Part shown: one piece after another, positions 1 to 30,018 of the stretch
Layout: each line of letters starts with the position of its first letter
How positions within the stretch are numbered: position 1 is the stretch's first letter
Origin: Streptomyces sp. SKN60
GTDB lineage: Bacteria > Actinomycetota > Actinomycetes > Streptomycetales > Streptomycetaceae
NCBI RefSeq assembly: GCF_026236535.1
Contig: NZ_JAHTMW010000008.1
Location: 1 to 64,000, forward strand
Direction of reading: 5' to 3'
DNA: 64,000 nucleotides
Program-made: the position numbers and the translations under genes
The notes under the pieces: generated by a model
Seen by the model: the letters and a program-made list of their open reading frames with translations, nothing else
Told to the model about the DNA's origin: nothing
Database searches by the model: none

Positions 1-3000
1 GTGATCTGTCGCAGAAGGTCACGGTGGACGTGGCCGGCGAGATGCTGGAGCTGAAGAACACCGTCAACACGATGGTGGACCAGCTCTCGGCGTTCGGTTC
101 CGAGGTGACCCGGGTGGCCCGGGAGGTCGGTGTCGAGGGCCGGCTCGGCGGTCAGGCGCAGGTGCAGGGCGCGGCCGGGACGTGGAAGGACCTGACGGAC
201 TCGGTGAACACCGCGTTCCGCAACCTGACCGGCCAGGTGCGGGACATCGCGCAGGTGACCACGGCGGTGGCCAATGGTGATCTGTCGCAGAAGGTCACGG
301 TGGACGTGGCCGGCGAGATGCTGGAGCTGAAGAACACCGTCAACACGATGGTGTCGCAGCTGTCGTCGTTCGCCGACCAGGTGACGCGGATGGCGCGGGA
401 CGTGGGCACCGAGGGCCGGCTGGGCGGTCAGGCGCGGGTGGACGGCGTGTCGGGGCGCTGGCGGGAGCTCACCGACTCGGTGAACTTCATGGCCGGCAAC
501 CTGACCTCGCAGGTGCGGCAGATCGCCCAGGTGACGACGGCGGTGGCCCGGGGTGATCTGTCGCAGAAGATCGACGTGGACGCGCGCGGCGAGATCCTGG
601 AGCTCAAGAACACCATCAACACGATGGTCGACCAGCTGTCCGCGTTCGCGGACCAGGTGACCCGGGTGGCGCGCGAGGTGGGCACCGACGGGCGGCTCGG
701 CGGGCAGGCCGTGGTGCCGGGCGTCGCCGGTGTGTGGCGGGACCTGACGGATTCGGTGAACGGCATGGCCGGGAACCTGACGGCGCAGGTGCGCAACATC
801 GCGCAGGTCGCGACGGCGGTGGCCCGGGGTGATCTGTCGCAGAAGATCGACGTGGACGCGCGCGGCGAGATCCTGGAGCTGAAGAACACCCTCAACACGA
901 TGGTGGACCAGCTCTCGGCGTTCGCGGAGCAGGTGACGCGGGTGGCCCGTGAGGTGGGAACCGACGGCATCCTGGGCGGTCAGGCCGAGGTGCAGGGGGT
1001 CTCCGGCACCTGGAAGGACCTCACCCAGTCGGTGAACATGATGGCGAACAACCTGACCTTCCAGGTCCGGAACATCGCCGAGGTCACCACGGCGGTCGCG
1101 AAGGGCGATCTGTCCAAGAAGATCACCGTCGACGCCAAGGGCGAGATCCTGGAGCTGGTGACGACCGTCAACACGATGGTGGACCAGCTGTCGAACTTCG
1201 CCGACGAGGTGACCCGGGTGGCCCGCGAGGTGGGCACCGAGGGCATCCTCGGCGGCCAGGCCCGGGTGCGCGGGGTGACCGGCATCTGGAAGGACCTCAG
1301 CGACAACGTCAACCTGATGGCCAACAACCTGACCAGTCAGGTGCGCAACATCTCCCGGGTGTCCGCGGCGGTCGCCAACGGCGACCTGACGAAGAAGGTC
1401 ACGGTCGAGGCGCGCGGCGAGGTCGCCGAGCTCGCCGACACCGTGAACACGATGGTGACGACGCTGTCCTCGTTCGCCGACGAGGTGACGAGGGTGGCCC
1501 GTGAGGTGGGCACCGATGGCATCCTCGGCGGCCAGGCCCGGGTGCCGGGCGTCTCGGGCACCTGGAAGGACCTCACCGAGTCGGTGAACTCGATGGCCGA
1601 CAACCTCACCGGTCAGGTGCGGCAGATCGCCGCGGTCGCCACCGCCTTCGCCAAGGGCGACCTCACCAAGAAGATCGACATCGACGCGCGCGGCGAGATC
1701 CTGGAGCTGAAGAACACCCTCAACACCATGGTCGACCAGCTGTCGAACTTCGCCGAGGAGGTCACCCGGGTGGCCCGCGAGGTGGGCACCGACGGACAGC
1801 TCGGCGGCCAGGCCCGGGTCCGGGACGTGGAGGGCACCTGGAGCGACCTGACGGAGTCCGTGAACGAGATGGCCGGGAACCTCACCCGGCAGGTGCGCGC
1901 CATCGCGGCCGTCGCCACCGCGGTGACCCGCGGCGACCTCAACGTCAAGATCGACGGTGTGGACGCGGCCGGTGAGATCCAGGCGCTCCAGGACAACATC
2001 AACACCATGATCGCGAACCTGCGCGACACCACCCTCGCCAACGACGAGCAGGACTGGCTGAAGAGCAACCTGGCCCGCATCTCCGGTCTGATGCAGGGCC
2101 GCCGCGACCTGGAGGACGTGGCCTCGCTCATCATGAGCGAGCTGACGCCGGTCGTCTCGGCCCAGCACGGCGCCTTCTTCGTGGCCATGCCGACCGGTTC
2201 CGCGCACGGCGAGGCCGAACCCGTGGGGGAGGGCGAGGGCGCGTACGAGCTGCGGATGCGCGGCAGTTACGGCTACTCCGCAGGCTCCATGCCGACCTCG
2301 TTCCGGCCGGGCGAGACGCTCATCGGGACGGCCGCCGAGGAGAAGCGGACCATCCAGGTCAACGTGCCGCCGGGCTATCTGAAGATCTCGTCCGGTCTGG
2401 GCGAGGCCGCCCCGGCCCATGTGATCGTGCTGCCCGTGCTGTTCGAGGGCCGGGTCCTCGGCGTGATCGAGCTGGCGTCCTTCCAGCCCTTCACCCAGAT
2501 CCAGCGGGACTTCCTCAACCAGATCGCCGAGCTGATCGCGACCACCGTCAACACCATCAGCGTCAACACCCGCACCGAGGTGCTGCTGCAGCAGTCGCAG
2601 GAGCTCACCGAGCAGCTGCGGGAGCGGTCGGCGGAGCTGGAGCACCGGCAGAAGGAGCTGCAGAACTCCAACGCGGAGCTGGAGGACAAGGCCGAACTCC
2701 TGGCCCGGCAGAACCGGGACATCGAGGTGAAGAACACCGAGATCGAGGAGGCCCGGCAGGTCCTGGAGGAGCGCGCCGAACAGCTCGCGGTCTCCATGCG
2801 CTACAAGTCGGAGTTCCTCGCGAACATGTCGCACGAGCTGCGCACCCCGCTCAACTCGCTGCTGATCCTGGCCAAGCTGCTCGCCGACAACGCGGACACG
2901 AACCTGACGCCCAAGCAGGTCGAGTTCGCCGAGACCATCCACGGCGCCGGCTCCGACCTGCTCCAGCTGATCAACGACATCCTCGACCTGTCGAAGGTCG

Positions 3001-13950: not shown

Positions 13951-14760
13951 TCAATTGGTGCGGGGGTGCTTGTTGCCGTCCGGGCCGCGCTGGCAGCCCG
14001 GGCACCAGTAGGTGACGCGGTCGCCCAGCTCCGCGCGCCGCACCGGGCCGCCGCAGCGGGGGCAGGGGCGGCCCTCCCGGCCGTACACGTACAGGCGCTC
14101 CCCGGTCCGGCCGGTCGTGGTGGTGCGGCGGTCCGGGCGGTCCTTGTTCGCCTCCAGGAGCCGGTGCGCCGTCGCGACGAGCCGCTCGGGCACGCCCTCG
14201 GCGAGCTCACCGACCGGCAGCCACGGGGTGACGCCGGCCAGGAAGGCCAGCTCCGACTTGTAGACATTGCCGATCCCCGCGAGATTGCGCTGGTCGAGCA
14301 GGGCCTCGCCGAGGGTGCGGGCCGGGTCGGCGGACAGCCGGCGCACCGCCTCCGCCGGGTCCCAGTCCGGGCCGAGCAGATCCGGGCCGAGATGGCCGAC
14401 CGCCTTCGACTCCTCCGCCGTGCGGATCAGCTCCAGGACCGGCAGCCGGTAGCCGTACGCGGTGAACTCGGCATTGCCGAGGATCGCCCGGATCTGGTGG
14501 GCCGGGCCGCCGCGCGGGCGCTCCCCGGTCGGGAAGATCCGCCAGGCGCCGTCCATCCGCAGATGGGAGTGGAGGGTCAGGCCGCCCTCGATCCGGGCGA
14601 GCAGATGCTTGCCGCGCGGAGTGACGTCGAGGACCCGGCGACCGGTGAGGTCGGCGGTGGCGAACCGGGGTACGCGCAGGTCGGAGCGGGTCAGCACCCG
14701 GCCGGCGAGCGCCTCGTCGAGCCGGCGGGCCGCGAACCAGACGCTGTCTCCTTCGGGCAT
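13951..14760 (-). CDS. nei: Fpg/Nei family DNA glycosylase (endonuclease VIII, Nei2-like)
   Basis: Base-excision repair enzyme of 269 residues. It begins MPEGDS, so the mature Pro-Glu catalytic pair is present as in Nei and Fpg proteins. LDQRNLAGIGNVYKSE is the helix-two-turn-helix DNA-binding segment. The C-terminal zinc finger is CPRCGG ... WCPGCQ, with four cysteines. It fits the actinobacterial Nei2 group better than Fpg because of the MPEGDSV start. It lies 32 nt upstream of the SDR gene on the same strand, downstream of lhr, making a small repair-related group. Confidence 0.88.
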   Translation of the reverse strand: MPEGDSVWFAARRLDEALAGRVLTRSDLRVPRFATADLTGRRVLDVTPRGKHLLARIEGGLTLHSHLRMDGAWRIFPTGERPRGGPAHQIRAILGNAEFTAYGYRLPVLELIRTAEESKAVGHLGPDLLGPDWDPAEAVRRLSADPARTLGEALLDQRNLAGIGNVYKSELAFLAGVTPWLPVGELAEGVPERLVATAHRLLEANKDRPDRRTTTTGRTGERLYVYGREGRPCPRCGGPVRRAELGDRVTYWCPGCQRGPDGNKHPRTN

Positions 14761-14954
14761 GCGCCCATCATGCCGCGCCCGGGGCGGGCTGCGGGTGCAC
14801 GGTTGTGCGGGATCGCCCGGGCGCGGTGCCCGGCGCCGGGCAGGGCGGCGGGCGTCCGGGCGGGGGGGCGTCCGGGCGGGGGGCTCGGGCGTCGCCCGGA
14901 GCCCGGGCCGGCCGGGCCGTGACTGGCCGCACGGTCAGGCGTGGGTCGGCGCGC

Positions 14955-17900
14955 TCAGGCGCGCAGCCGCAGGCCGCGCGGGGTGGCGTGGAAGCCGGCC
15001 GCCTCCAGCGGTCGGGAGAGCGGGGAGGTCAGGGCGGTCGCCCCGTTGATCCGCTCCACCGTGACCGTGCCCAGCGAGCCCGCCGAGGCCGCGGCCGCCA
15101 GCGCCTCCGCGGCGGCCTTCAGCGCCGGGGAGTCCGGCTCGGCGGGCCAGGAGAGCAGCGTCTTGCCGCCGCGCTCCATGTAGAGCGTCAGCTCGCCGTC
15201 GACCAGGACCACCATGGCGCCCGCCTTGCGGCCCGGCTTGTGGCCGGCGCCGGTGGGCGGCTCGGGCCAGGACAGGGCCGCCCCGTACGCGTTCGCCGGG
15301 TCGGCCGCCGCCAGGACCACCGCCTTCGGGCCCGCGCCCTCCTCGGCGCCCCGGTCCCGGGCGTTCGCGGCGGCCCGCAGCCGGTCCACCGCCCCGTCCA
15401 TGGCGAACTGGGCCGCGCCCAGACCCTCCACCACATAGCCGCGGCGGGCCTGCCCGCTGTCCTCGAAGGCGGACAGGATCCGGTACGTGGCGGAGAAGCC
15501 GCCCTCCACGCCCTCGGCGGCCACCGCGCCCCGGGTGACCACACCGTGCCGGTCGAGCAGCGTACGGGCCAGGGCATGGGCCCGGTGGGTCGGCTCCGGC
15601 TCCAGGGGCGGCAGCAGCGACCAGCGGCCGCTCACCGTGGGCGGCCCGGTGCGGGAGGCCGGGCGGGCGGCGGCGCTCAGCGTCCCGTACCGGCCGCGCG
15701 GGACCGTGCGGCGGGCGCGGTGCGCCGTGGAGCCGGCCGTGCGGCCCGAGCCGAGCAGCGAGCGCAGCGGGGCCAGGGTGTCGTTGGTGAGCCGCCCGGA
15801 CCAGGCCAGGTCCCACAGGACGTCGGCGAGCTGCGGGTCGGTGGCGTCCGGGTGGGTGGTGGCCCGGACCTGGTCGGCGATCTGGCGGAAGAACAGTCCG
15901 TACCCCCCGGAGAGGATGCCGAGGACGGACTCGTGGAGCCCGGTGAGCTCCAGCGGGCGCGGCGGCGGCAGGAGCAGCGGCGCCGCGTCCGCGAGATAGA
16001 GGGAGATCCAGCCGTCCTTGCCGGGCAGGGACCCGGCGCCCGCCCACAGGACCTCGCCCGTGGTGGTCAGCTCGTCGAGGAGCGCGGGGGAGTAGTCCCG
16101 CACCCGGGACGGCAGGATCAGCTTCTCCAGGGCCGAGGCGGGCACGGGGGCGCCCTGCAGCTGCTCGATCGCCCGCGCCAGGCCGTCGATTCCGCGCAGG
16201 CCGTTGCTCCCCAGGTGCTGCCACTGGGGCAGGAAGGTGGCGAGCGCGGCCGGCGGGACCGGCTCCAGCTCGTGCCGCAGGGCGGCGAGGGAGCGGCGGC
16301 GCAGACGTCTGAGGACGGCGGCGTCGCACCATTCCTGGCCGATGCCCGAGGGGTGGAACTCTCCTTGTACGACGCGGCCGGCGGCGGCCAGGCGCTGCAG
16401 CGCGCCGTCGGTGACCGCCGGGCCCAGGCCGAAGCGGGCGGCGGCCTCGGAGGACGTGAACGGGCCGTGGGTACGGGCGTGCCGGGCGAGCAGATCGCCC
16501 AGCGGGTCCTTCACCGGCTCGGTGAACGCCTCCGGCACGCCCACCGGCAGCGCCGTGCCCAGCGCGTCCCGCAGCCGGCCCGCGTCCTCGATCGCCGCCC
16601 AGTGGTCGGCGCCCGAGATCCGCACCCGGATCGCGCGCCGGGCCCGGGACAGCTCCTCGGCCCAGCCGGGCTCGGCGCCCCGCTCGGCCAGCTCGGCCGT
16701 GGTCAGCGGACCGAGCACGCGCAGGGCGTCGGCGACGCCCTCCGCGTCCTTGATCCGCCGGTCCTCGGTCAGCCACTGGAGCTCCCGCTCGAGCTCCGTG
16801 AGCACGTCGGCGTCGAGCAGCTCCCGCAGCTCGGCCTGCCCGAGGAGCTCGGCGAGCAGCCGGGAGTCCAGGGACAGGGCGGCGGCCCGGCGCTCGGCGA
16901 GCGGCGAGTCGCCCTCGTACAGGAACTGGGCGACATAGCCGAAGAGGAGGGAGCGGGCGAACGGGGACGGCTCCGGGGTGGTGACCTCCACCAGGCGCAC
17001 CCGGCGGGACTCGATGTCGCCCATCAGCTCGCGCAGACCGGGGACGTCGAAGACGTCCTGGAGGCATTCGCGGACCGCCTCCAGGACGATCGGGAAGGAG
17101 CCGAACTCGCTCGCCACCTGCAGCAGTTGCGCCGCCCGCTGGCGCTGCTGCCACAGCGGTGTGCGCTTGCCCGGATTGCGCTTGGGAAGCAGCAGGGCGC
17201 GCGCCGCGCACTCGCGGAAGCGGGAGGCGAACAGCGCCGAGCCGCCGACCTGGTCGGTGACGATCTGCTCGACCTCGCCCTGGTCGAAGGCGACGTCGGC
17301 GGCGCCCACCGGCGCCTGGTCGGCGTCGAAGACGGTGTCGGCGAGCCGGCTCGGATCCACCGGCTCGCTGTCGAGCAGGTCGAGGCCCATCAGATCCGCG
17401 TCCGGCAGCCGCAGCACGATGCCGTCGTCGGCGTGCATCACCTGCGCGTCCATCCCGTACCGCTCGGCGAGCCGGGCGCCGAGGGCCAGCGCCCACGGGG
17501 CGTGCACCTGCGCGCCGAACGGGGAGTGCACCACCACCCGCCAGTCGCCCAGCTCGTCCCGGAACCGCTCCACCAGGATCGTCCGGTCGTCCGGGACATG
17601 GCCGCAGGCCTCGCGCTGCTCCGCGAGATACGCGATGACGTTGTCCGCCGCCCAGGCGTCGAGCCCGGCGGCGAGCAGCCGCAGCCGGGCGTCGTCCGGC
17701 GCGAGGGCCCCCACCTCGCGCAGGAACGCGCCGAGCGCCCGGCCCAGTTCGAGCGGACGGCCCAGCTGGTCGCCCTTCCAGAACGGCAGCCGCCCCGGCA
17801 CGCCCGGCGCGGGCGACACCAGGACCCGGTCGCGGGTGATGTCCTCGATCCGCCAGGACGTGGTGCCCAGCGTGAACACGTCGCCGACCCGCGACTCGTA

Positions 17901-19592
17901 CACCATCTCCTCGTCGAGCTCGCCGACCCGGCCGCCGCCCTTCTTCGGGTCGGCGCCCGCCAGGAACACCCCGAACAGACCCCGGTCGGGGATCGTGCCG
18001 CCCGAGGTGACCGCGAGCCGCTGCGCGCCGGGGCGGCCGGTGACCGTGCCCGCGACCCGGTCCCACACCACGCGCGGGCGCAGTTCGGCGAAGGCGTCCG
18101 AGGGATAGCGTCCGGCCAGCATGTCCAGGACCGCCGTGAACGCCGACTCGGGCAGCGCCGCGAACGGCGCCGCCCGGCGCACCGTCGCGAGCAGGTCGTC
18201 CACCTGCCAGGAGTCCAGAGAGACCATCGCCACCAGCTGCTGGGCGAGCACGTCCAGCGGATTCGCCGGGATCCGCATCGACTCGATGGAGCCGGACCGC
18301 ATCCGCTCGGTGACCACCGCCGACTGCACCAGATCGCCCCGGTACTTCGGGAAGACCACGCCCGTCGACACCGCGCCCACCTGGTGCCCCGCGCGGCCCA
18401 CCCGCTGGAGCCCGGAGGCGACCGAGGGCGGCGACTCGACCTGCACCACCAGGTCCACCGCGCCCATGTCGATGCCCAGCTCCAGGCTGGACGTCGCCAC
18501 CACCGCCGGCAGCCGGCCCGCCTTCAGATCCTCCTCGACCTGGGCGCGCTGCTCCTTGGACACCGAGCCGTGGTGCGCCCGGGCGAGCAGCGGCGGCGCC
18601 CCCCGGGCCGCGCCCGACTGGGCCATGATCTCGGCGGGCGGCTTGTCGTCGGGCAGGGCCTCGCCGGTGGCCCGCTCGTACGCGATCTCGTTCAGCCGGT
18701 TGCAGAGGCGCTCGGCGAGCCGGCGCGAGTTCGCGAACACGATCGTCGAGCGGTGCGCCTGCACCAGGTCGGCGATGCGCTCCTCCACATGCGGCCAGAT
18801 CGACGGCCGGTCGCCGCCGTCGCCCGCGTCGGAGGCGGGGGAGCCGCCCAGCTCACCCATGTCCTCGACCGGCACGACCACCGAGAGGTCGAACTCCTTG
18901 CCCGACGGCGGCTGGACGATCTCCACCTTCCGCTGCGGCGACAGATAGCGCGCCACCTCCTCCACCGGCCGCACCGTCGCGGAGAGCCCGATCCGGCGGG
19001 CCGGGCGCGGCAACAGCTCGTCCAGCCGCTCCAGGGAGAGCGCCAGATGCGCGCCGCGCTTGGTGCCGGCGACCGCATGGACCTCGTCGAGGATCACCGT
19101 CTCCACGCCCGCGAGCGCGTCCCGGGTTGCCGAGGTCAGCATCAGGAACAGCGACTCGGGCGTGGTGATCAGGATGTCCGGCGGCCGGGTCGCCAGCGCC
19201 CGGCGCTCGGCCGGCGGGGTGTCGCCGGACCGGATCCCCACCTTCACGTCGGGCTCGGGCAGTCCGAGCCGGACCGACTCCTGCCGGATGCCGGTCAGCG
19301 GCGAGCGCAGATTCCGCTCCACGTCGACGGCCAGCGCCTTCAGCGGTGACACGTACAGCACCCGGCAGCGCTTCTTCGCGTCGGCGGGCGGCGGCACCGC
19401 CGCCAGCCGGTCGAGCGAGGCCAGGAAGGCGGCCAGGGTCTTGCCCGAACCGGTCGGCGCCACGACGAGCACGTCCGAACCCGCGCCGATGGCCTTCCAG
19501 GCACCCTCCTGAGCGGCGGTGGGCGCGTGGAAGGCCCCGGTGAACCAGCCGCGGGTCGCGGGCGAGAACGAGTCGAGTGCGGACCTGACCAT
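14955..19592 (-). CDS. lhr: Lhr, large superfamily-2 DNA helicase
   Basis: About 1545 residues, the usual size of full-length Lhr. The helicase core opens with Walker A APTGSGKT (residues 45-52), TTPESL (143-148) and DEVH (169-172). SATVRP, TSSLELGIDMGAVDLVVQVESPPSVASGLQRVGRAGH gives motifs IV-VI. A winged helix and a long Lhr C-terminal domain complete it. Mycobacterial Lhr is a 3'-5' translocating helicase in the mitomycin-C-induced repair regulon. The start is set at ATG 19592 (MVRSALD) rather than 19601, because a RecA-NDp-like promoter (19600-19622) would initiate exactly there and there is no need for a leader. Divergent from the araC-type gene. Confidence 0.92.
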   Translation of the reverse strand: MVRSALDSFSPATRGWFTGAFHAPTAAQEGAWKAIGAGSDVLVVAPTGSGKTLAAFLASLDRLAAVPPPADAKKRCRVLYVSPLKALAVDVERNLRSPLTGIRQESVRLGLPEPDVKVGIRSGDTPPAERRALATRPPDILITTPESLFLMLTSATRDALAGVETVILDEVHAVAGTKRGAHLALSLERLDELLPRPARRIGLSATVRPVEEVARYLSPQRKVEIVQPPSGKEFDLSVVVPVEDMGELGGSPASDAGDGGDRPSIWPHVEERIADLVQAHRSTIVFANSRRLAERLCNRLNEIAYERATGEALPDDKPPAEIMAQSGAARGAPPLLARAHHGSVSKEQRAQVEEDLKAGRLPAVVATSSLELGIDMGAVDLVVQVESPPSVASGLQRVGRAGHQVGAVSTGVVFPKYRGDLVQSAVVTERMRSGSIESMRIPANPLDVLAQQLVAMVSLDSWQVDDLLATVRRAAPFAALPESAFTAVLDMLAGRYPSDAFAELRPRVVWDRVAGTVTGRPGAQRLAVTSGGTIPDRGLFGVFLAGADPKKGGGRVGELDEEMVYESRVGDVFTLGTTSWRIEDITRDRVLVSPAPGVPGRLPFWKGDQLGRPLELGRALGAFLREVGALAPDDARLRLLAAGLDAWAADNVIAYLAEQREACGHVPDDRTILVERFRDELGDWRVVVHSPFGAQVHAPWALALGARLAERYGMDAQVMHADDGIVLRLPDADLMGLDLLDSEPVDPSRLADTVFDADQAPVGAADVAFDQGEVEQIVTDQVGGSALFASRFRECAARALLLPKRNPGKRTPLWQQRQRAAQLLQVASEFGSFPIVLEAVRECLQDVFDVPGLRELMGDIESRRVRLVEVTTPEPSPFARSLLFGYVAQFLYEGDSPLAERRAAALSLDSRLLAELLGQAELRELLDADVLTELERELQWLTEDRRIKDAEGVADALRVLGPLTTAELAERGAEPGWAEELSRARRAIRVRISGADHWAAIEDAGRLRDALGTALPVGVPEAFTEPVKDPLGDLLARHARTHGPFTSSEAAARFGLGPAVTDGALQRLAAAGRVVQGEFHPSGIGQEWCDAAVLRRLRRRSLAALRHELEPVPPAALATFLPQWQHLGSNGLRGIDGLARAIEQLQGAPVPASALEKLILPSRVRDYSPALLDELTTTGEVLWAGAGSLPGKDGWISLYLADAAPLLLPPPRPLELTGLHESVLGILSGGYGLFFRQIADQVRATTHPDATDPQLADVLWDLAWSGRLTNDTLAPLRSLLGSGRTAGSTAHRARRTVPRGRYGTLSAAARPASRTGPPTVSGRWSLLPPLEPEPTHRAHALARTLLDRHGVVTRGAVAAEGVEGGFSATYRILSAFEDSGQARRGYVVEGLGAAQFAMDGAVDRLRAAANARDRGAEEGAGPKAVVLAAADPANAYGAALSWPEPPTGAGHKPGRKAGAMVVLVDGELTLYMERGGKTLLSWPAEPDSPALKAAAEALAAAASAGSLGTVTVERINGATALTSPLSRPLEAAGFHATPRGLRLRA

Positions 19593-19599
19593 GTCCCCC

Positions 19600-19622
19600 A
19601 TCGTGCACCCCACCACTGACAA
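19600..19622 (-). promoter_or_regulatory. RecA-NDp-like (PafBC-type) DNA-damage promoter of lhr
   Basis: On the minus strand TTGTCAGTGG (19613-19622), one base, then GGGGTG, then a -10-like CACGAT (19600-19605), with 7 nt to the lhr ATG. The first ten bases and the spacing equal those of the recA element at 28825-28847. The -10 is weaker. RecA-NDp elements drive LexA-independent damage induction in actinobacteria through the WYL proteins PafB/PafC. Confidence 0.6.
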
Positions 19623-19683: not shown

Positions 19684-20730
19684 ATGAGCACTCCCGACGC
19701 GCCGAACCCGCCGACGGGCGCCGCCGCGGCTCCCGGGTCGCGGGCCGCGGGCGGCCCGGCGGACGTCGCCGGGACTTCCGGGAGCTCCCGGGCCACCGGC
19801 GCAGCGGCCGGGCGCGAGGGCACCGGCGGTGGCGTTCCCGGCACCGGGTCCCCGCGTGGGCATGCCGTTGCCGAGGGCGACCTCAGCGGGGCTCCCGCCG
19901 CCTCCGGGCGGGCCGGGGAGCGCGCGCGGTACTGGCGGCCGGACGGGCTGCCGGGGGTGGACCTGCTGCACGCGCACTACGTGCGGAAGAGCTTCTCCCG
20001 GCACACCCACGAGAGCTTCGTCTTCGCCGCCATCACCGAGGGCGTCGAGGCCTTCCACTACGGCAGCGACCTCGTGCACGCCGGGCCCGGCCAGATCGCG
20101 CTCGTCAATCCGGACACCCCCCACACCGGGCACGCGGGCGTGCCCGAGGGCTGGACCTACCGCACGATCTACCCCGACGCCGAACTGATCCGCGGCATCG
20201 CCGCCGACACCCTCGCGCTGCGCGGGGACGCCGGCTTCACCCAGCCCGTCGTGGACGACCCGTACGCCGCCCGGCTCGTCGTCGGCGTGCACCGGGCCGC
20301 CGAGGAGGGCAACGCGCTGGCCGCCGACAGCCTGCTGCGCCTGGTCACCGCGCGGATGCTGCGCAGCCACGGCGGCCGGGTGACGCCGCTGGCCCCGCTC
20401 GCCGCCGGGGCGCGGGACGCGGCACGCGCGCGTGCCGTCCTGGAGGAGCGGATGGCCGATCCGCCGACCCTGGAGCGGCTCGCCGCCGAGCTCGGCACCA
20501 GCCCCTTCGCACTGCTGCGGGCCTTCCGCGCCGCGTACGGGATGCCGCCGCACACCTGGCTCACCGACGCCCGGGTCCGGCGGGCGCGCCGCCTCCTGGA
20601 CACGGGGACGCCCCCGGCGGAGGCCGCCGTCGCCGTCGGCTTCACCGACCAGCCACACCTGAACCGGCACTTCACCCGCAGCGTCGGGGTGCCCCCGGGG
20701 GCCTACCAGCGGGCCCGCGGCCTGCGCTGA
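19684..20730 (+). CDS. AraC-family transcriptional regulator
   Basis: A 348-residue regulator. The first 75 residues are Gly/Ala/Ser/Pro-rich low complexity. Residues 85-190 form a cupin-like effector domain (HYVRKSFSRHTHESFVFAAITEG ... ALVNPDTPHTGH). The C-terminal 100 residues hold the two HTH motifs of AraC proteins (LERLAAELGTSPFALLRAFRAAYG; AAVAVGFTDQPHLNRHFTRSVGVPPGAYQRA). GGGGAG precedes the ATG. AraC regulators of this type are commonly next to azlCD, as here 75 nt downstream, so it likely controls export of branched-chain or related amino acids. The long N-terminal tail may be a wrong start; the conserved part begins near residue 80. Confidence 0.82.
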   Translation: MSTPDAPNPPTGAAAAPGSRAAGGPADVAGTSGSSRATGAAAGREGTGGGVPGTGSPRGHAVAEGDLSGAPAASGRAGERARYWRPDGLPGVDLLHAHYVRKSFSRHTHESFVFAAITEGVEAFHYGSDLVHAGPGQIALVNPDTPHTGHAGVPEGWTYRTIYPDAELIRGIAADTLALRGDAGFTQPVVDDPYAARLVVGVHRAAEEGNALAADSLLRLVTARMLRSHGGRVTPLAPLAAGARDAARARAVLEERMADPPTLERLAAELGTSPFALLRAFRAAYGMPPHTWLTDARVRRARRLLDTGTPPAEAAVAVGFTDQPHLNRHFTRSVGVPPGAYQRARGLR

Positions 20731-28722: not shown

Positions 28723-28752
28723 TTGACACGAAAATCGAACATCCATTCTTAT
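28723..28752 (+). promoter_or_regulatory. recA promoter with Cheo/SOS box between -35 and -10
   Basis: TTGACA (28723-28728) and TCTTAT (28747-28752) make a -35/-10 pair at 18-nt spacing. GAACATCCATTCT (28737-28749) overlaps the spacer and the -10. That sequence matches the Cheo-type SOS box I recall for Streptomyces recA promoters. LexA bound here would block polymerase directly. Confidence 0.75.
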
Positions 28753-28824: not shown

Positions 28825-28847
28825 TTGTCAGTGGCAGGGGTTAGCGT
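28825..28847 (+). promoter_or_regulatory. RecA-NDp (PafBC-type) promoter of recA
   Basis: TTGTCAGTGGC (28825-28835), 6 nt, then TAGCGT (28842-28847). This is an exact fit to the actinobacterial RecA-NDp arrangement (TTGTCAGTGGC-N6-TAGGGT) apart from one base of the -10. It gives LexA-independent damage induction. Transcription would start about 7 nt on, at or beside ATG 28855, which reads in frame into recA. Confidence 0.85.
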
Positions 28848-28890
28848 CTTTCCCATGAAGCGATCGACTCAAGCAAACCGGGTGGAACCC

Positions 28891-30018
<1,128 letters not shown>

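Follow-up and report, generated by a model that had tools for sequence, protein, structure and literature searches.

The lhr helicase gene of Streptomyces sp. SKN60 shares the kind of DNA-damage promoter that precedes recA, and this element is conserved across the genus, a conclusion strongly supported by sequence comparison. In our estimate (a probability of roughly 85%), a PafBC-type (RecA-NDp) promoter drives lhr, and perhaps the nei2-like gene behind it, without LexA, being activated by PafBC as in mycobacteria and giving a leaderless start. In the window, namely the whole 64,000-nt stretch of DNA that was analysed, the features concerned were as follows.

19613..19622, minus strand: TTGTCAGTGG, the RecA-NDp / PafBC −26-type motif of lhr (direct reading and conservation)
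19606..19612, minus strand: 7-nt lhr spacer TGGGGTG, the TG at its end directly abutting the −10 (direct reading and conservation)
19600..19605, minus strand: lhr −10 hexamer CACGAT (direct reading and conservation)
19590..19592, minus strand: lhr ATG, start codon and predicted transcription start, leaderless (orthologue reading frames)
14955..19592, minus strand: lhr, ATP-dependent helicase, 1545 aa (NF007284, residues 7-1542)
13951..14760, minus strand: Fpg/Nei-family glycosylase gene, nei2-like, behind lhr (PF01149, PF06831, PF06827)
19690..20730, start approximate, plus strand: divergent AraC-family regulator gene upstream of lhr, a promoter neighbour only (PF02311, PF12833)
28825..28847, plus strand: recA element TTGTCAGTGG-N7-TAGCGT (direct reading)

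The lhr product was identified by NF007284/PRK09751 at 1671 bits (cut-off 1496), and recA by TIGR02012. On the minus strand, GGGGGAC forms the 7 nt between the lhr −10 and the ATG at 19592, while the plus strand at recA reads TTGTCAGTGG (28825-28834), CAGGGGT, TAGCGT, CTTTCCC, and ATG (28855). Direct reading of both sites thereby confirmed the claim of the earlier note that the two elements agree in motif and spacing: both have the same ten bases, a spacer of 7 nt, and a further 7 nt between the −10 and the ATG, and the fixed 7-nt spacing from TTGTCAGTGG to the −10 was likewise found in the 108 lhr promoters described below. The TTGTC[AG]GTG core is present at lhr in the exact and conserved TTGTCAGTGG. 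When the lhr −10 was compared with the published TANNNT consensus, A2 and T6 matched and T1 did not (CACGAT). The lhr promoter is a further member of a known promoter type, its −10 being a variant form.

The start of lhr was assigned to 19592, as had been claimed, because the rival ATG overlapping the −10 (19601 here) was out of frame in 61 of 107 lhr orthologues and an in-frame start codon lay 6 or 7 nt past the −10 in all 108 Streptomyces lhr promoters; the start at 19601 was rejected on the former observation. A longer open reading frame from 19844 was also rejected, since the promoter would fall inside the extension and the helicase profile already covers the product of the 19592 start from residue 7 onwards. 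Such placement of the start codon is a property of the promoter class: in 41 Streptomyces genomes, ATG or GTG was found at 6/7 nt past the −10 in 626 of 1282 sites, versus 69 at 12/13 nt. Because the start codon stands at the expected transcription start, the lhr mRNA should be leaderless, probably beginning at or beside the A of ATG 19592. For recA, position 28855 differs from the customary start, its ATG lying 12 codons upstream of, and in frame with, ATGGCAGGA. Nine of the 11 recA loci compared possessed an ATG or GTG 7 nt past the −10, likewise in frame and preceding the customary start by 12 codons, and the remaining two gave no match to the search pattern used. A leaderless damage transcript could yield RecA with an N-terminal extension (28855-28893, plus strand).

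Conservation was assessed on lhr loci from Streptomyces, 110 in number (80 named records, and 30 loci of genomes in the genus, the present one among them), which gave 108 distinct promoters. Loss of the motif from related lhr promoters, which the earlier note had regarded as refuting its proposal, was not seen in this set; the element was kept in 108 of 108, with no mismatch in 68, one in 29, two in 10, and three in a single promoter. The −10 was CACGAT in 78, CAGGAT in 29, and CACCAT in one, directly preceded by TG in 107 of the 108. The motif and GGTGCA[CG]GATGG carried 1.6-2.0 bits per column, except for the last motif base (1.0) and the C/G position (1.2), whereas the columns farther upstream mostly carried 0.2-0.5 bits, with a maximum of 1.1 over the 15 bases adjoining the motif. 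The element of S. zaomyceticus, which we take to be a close relative of S. venezuelae, had one mismatch. Outside the genus, eight of 52 lhr upstream regions scored at least 10 of 12, versus 0.21 expected from shuffles, mostly with TGTCGG, which is the M. smegmatis form (PMC8151990). That only these eight scored clearly counts against the preferred reading.

Within the 64-kb window, two exact copies of TTGTCAGTGG were present, and allowing one mismatch gave three matches versus 1.5 expected. Although this unremarkable figure would by itself fit a chance match, the window-only one-mismatch statistics are uninformative, and a genome-wide count, which the earlier note had suggested as a check, returned 34 exact copies versus one for the pattern read backwards. 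Together with the fixed spacing, the conservation in all 108 lhr promoters refuted a chance origin, which is left with a negligible probability. Thirty of the 34 exact sites were accompanied by a suitable −10 (A and T at two key positions). In the 41 Streptomyces genomes sampled, 11 to 61 motif plus −10 sites were found in each, 1282 in total, versus none in the control. The G-variant TTGTCGGTGG occurred in 48 copies in this genome versus six for its reversed control, and was rejected as the main form here because only seven copies had a −10 (37 for both forms less the 30 of TTGTCAGTGG). In Streptomyces TTGTCAGTGG is the predominant form, whereas the other families of the class mainly have TTGTCGGTGG.

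The genes behind the exact sites in this genome included recA, lhr, lexA, ruvC, dinB, uracil-DNA glycosylase, dnaX, and a beta-clamp protein, as well as a RecD2-type HHH domain protein, a DnaQ-like exonuclease, a pol A-like protein, and macro, WGR, and AAA ATPase proteins. Judged by this predicted gene content, the set is a DNA-damage regulon. Some exact sites at less convincing positions (L018, L019, and L023 among them) are probably background. Exact copies were also located before less expected genes, encoding glyoxalase-like, macro-domain, MFS transporter, WGR-domain, and YunG proteins (L005, L010, L022, L024, and L027), and these genes are candidates for uncharacterised damage functions. 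At one position (L013/L014, G000:C16:82564-82631, near 1501 and 1559), a head-to-head pair of motif copies, separated by about 50-60 nt, is flanked by divergent genes for a 457-aa protein without a Pfam match and an AAA_5 ATPase; close divergent motif pairs resembling it were seen in four further genomes (G013, G032, G036, and G039), marking a candidate uncharacterised damage-inducible pair. A DnaN-like beta clamp gene, either the main clamp or a damage-specific paralogue (L202, 1531-2643, plus strand), has the motif, TAGCGT, and an ATG 7 nt on. At the lexA locus (L028), an exact motif at 1501 (minus strand) lies about 107 nt upstream of lexA (691-1380, minus strand) on the same strand. The motif copy near lexA of M. 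tuberculosis was reported in the opposite orientation (PMC8151990), in contrast to the present one, whose placement on lexA's own strand may couple the two damage pathways here.

The earlier note had described CACGAT as weak. This description needs correction, since the CA[CG]GAT type is conserved in Streptomyces lhr and is accompanied by a neighbouring TG, a feature missing from T-initial −10s. When TG was scored at spacer positions 5-6 or 6-7, 166 distinct sites showed it in two of 72 with a T-initial −10 versus 62 of 94 with a non-T −10 (Fisher p = 7e-19). In four further genomes the corresponding figures were 1/34 and 22/30 (p = 1e-9), and in lhr promoters outside the genus 0/5 and 5/7 (p = 0.03). 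As the pooled sets hold non-independent orthologous sites, the safe figure is that of this single genome, in which TG was found in 0/15 T-initial versus 11/15 non-T sites (p = 5e-5). T1 is absent from about half of the Streptomyces sites, the majority of which carry TG in its place. The lhr promoter belongs to this second class, its TG adjoining the hexamer, in contrast to the classical one-base gap at many other sites.

These patterns suggested that CA[CG]GAT with TG is an alternative −10 type, in which TG would make up for the missing T. The combination of TG and a T-initial −10 would be avoided, as it would make a promoter active even when the activator is absent. A TG near the −10 can on its own support recognition by the housekeeping sigma factor. 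With TG in 107 of the 108 lhr promoters, TG-class promoters such as that of lhr might accordingly be largely constitutive extended −10 promoters to which the PafBC motif adds little; this is unlikely, because at lhr the PafBC motif is conserved as well as the −10, and TG is nearly absent beside T-initial −10s, which is what a limit on total strength would predict. For activation by PafBC, we put forward, at even odds, a broader scheme: Streptomyces PafBC promoters would fall into two exclusive −10 classes (T without TG, and non-T with TG), each just too weak to fire without activated PafBC, and about half of them would also set the start codon at the point where transcription begins, so that leaderless mRNAs would serve much of the damage regulon, including recA and lhr.

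The presumed activator genes are present: pafB and pafC adjoin pafA and encode WYL + WCX proteins, with PF19187 (HTH_PafC). This domain was at least weakly matched in all 40 genomes tested, and the presence of pafC was therefore rejected as a lineage discriminator. Since only two of the nine WYL-domain matches in this genome are PafB and PafC, another WYL activator, or an alternative sigma factor, could be the reader of a true damage promoter in Streptomyces. Such a reader seems quite improbable, given that the motif is that of mycobacterial PafBC, that the same kinds of genes are controlled, and that pafBC is present with the PafC-type HTH domain included. A RecA-NDp/PafBC-type promoter at lhr, as the earlier note had proposed, was strongly supported by the genus-wide conservation, the enrichment before repair genes, the presence of pafBC, and the mycobacterial lhr-nei2 precedent (PMC11323726). 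Its assignment to a LexA-independent class also gained support, as a search of the 4.9 kb around the lhr promoter for an SOS box (GAACN4GTTC-like, at most one mismatch) gave no match.

Like mycobacterial lhr-nei2, which was reported to be PafBC-controlled (PMC11323726, PMC8151990), lhr has an Fpg/Nei gene 3' of it on the same strand, as seen from gene order. In the 194-nt gap between them (14761-14954, minus strand), no PafBC motif proper to nei2 was seen on inspection by eye. A CATGAT hexamer in this gap lies 6 nt before the nei2-like ATG, and the gene may have a leaderless promoter of its own, beside any read-through from lhr. The recA gene resembles LexA / SOS-controlled repair genes in that an SOS-box-like site, GAACATCCATTC, lies upstream of it (28737-28748, plus strand); this site would place recA under both LexA and PafBC. 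The lhr promoter differs from LexA / SOS promoters, which likewise put repair genes under DNA-damage control, in having no SOS-box-like sequence nearby and in its presumed mode of control, activation rather than derepression.

Mycobacterial PafBC responds to single-stranded DNA, which activates it, and forms a bridge between the −26 motif and sigma domain 4 (PMC11804915). By analogy, we infer PafBC binding, PafBC dependence, damage induction, the transcription start, and the role of TG at lhr as follows. DNA damage would generate single-stranded DNA, by which PafBC would become activated; PafB would bind the −26 motif TTGTCAGTGG, and PafC would dock on domain 4 of the housekeeping sigma factor, standing in for the missing −35 contact. 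RNA polymerase would then open the DNA at the −10, at lhr the TG + CA[CG]GAT type, and a transcript starting with the A of ATG 19592, or directly beside it, would be leaderless.

The Streptomyces elements are like mycobacterial RecA-NDp / PafBC promoters in the TGTC[AG]G motif, the spacing to the −10, and the DNA repair targets. The lhr promoter differs in having A rather than G in the core, and CACGAT with an adjacent TG rather than TANNNT; the CA in place of the TA of the published mycobacterial consensus counts against the preferred reading. According to the main text of PMC2375139, the S. rimosus recA promoter is TTGTCAGTGGC-N6-TAGggT (Ahel 2002, cited therein), and genome-wide motif variants were described in S. 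coelicolor and S. avermitilis in 2008. The same ten bases, spacing, genus, and repair targets are shared with the present element, although lhr differs from the S. rimosus recA promoter in its non-T −10, and lhr is not a named target in that main text. A 2022 study of S. venezuelae, which also stands against our reading, reported no conservation of the M. smegmatis motif there and left a PafBC-type pathway open (PMC9380542). The A-form in Streptomyces versus the G-form elsewhere may be the reason that the S. venezuelae pathway was overlooked when the M. smegmatis motif served as the query. In a literature search covering mostly open-access main texts, we found none that named Streptomyces lhr as a target or described the TG/T split, nor any Streptomyces PafBC study or PafBC expression or binding data.

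Every sampled Streptomyces genome thus carries the motif, as the A-variant with a relaxed −10, before core repair genes, and the PafBC question is therefore directly testable at lhr and recA. The exclusion between TG and T offers a hypothesis for the silencing of promoters dependent on a sigma adapter when the adapter is absent, and could be a design rule. Moreover, the placement of the start codons implies leaderless translation for part of the damage response.
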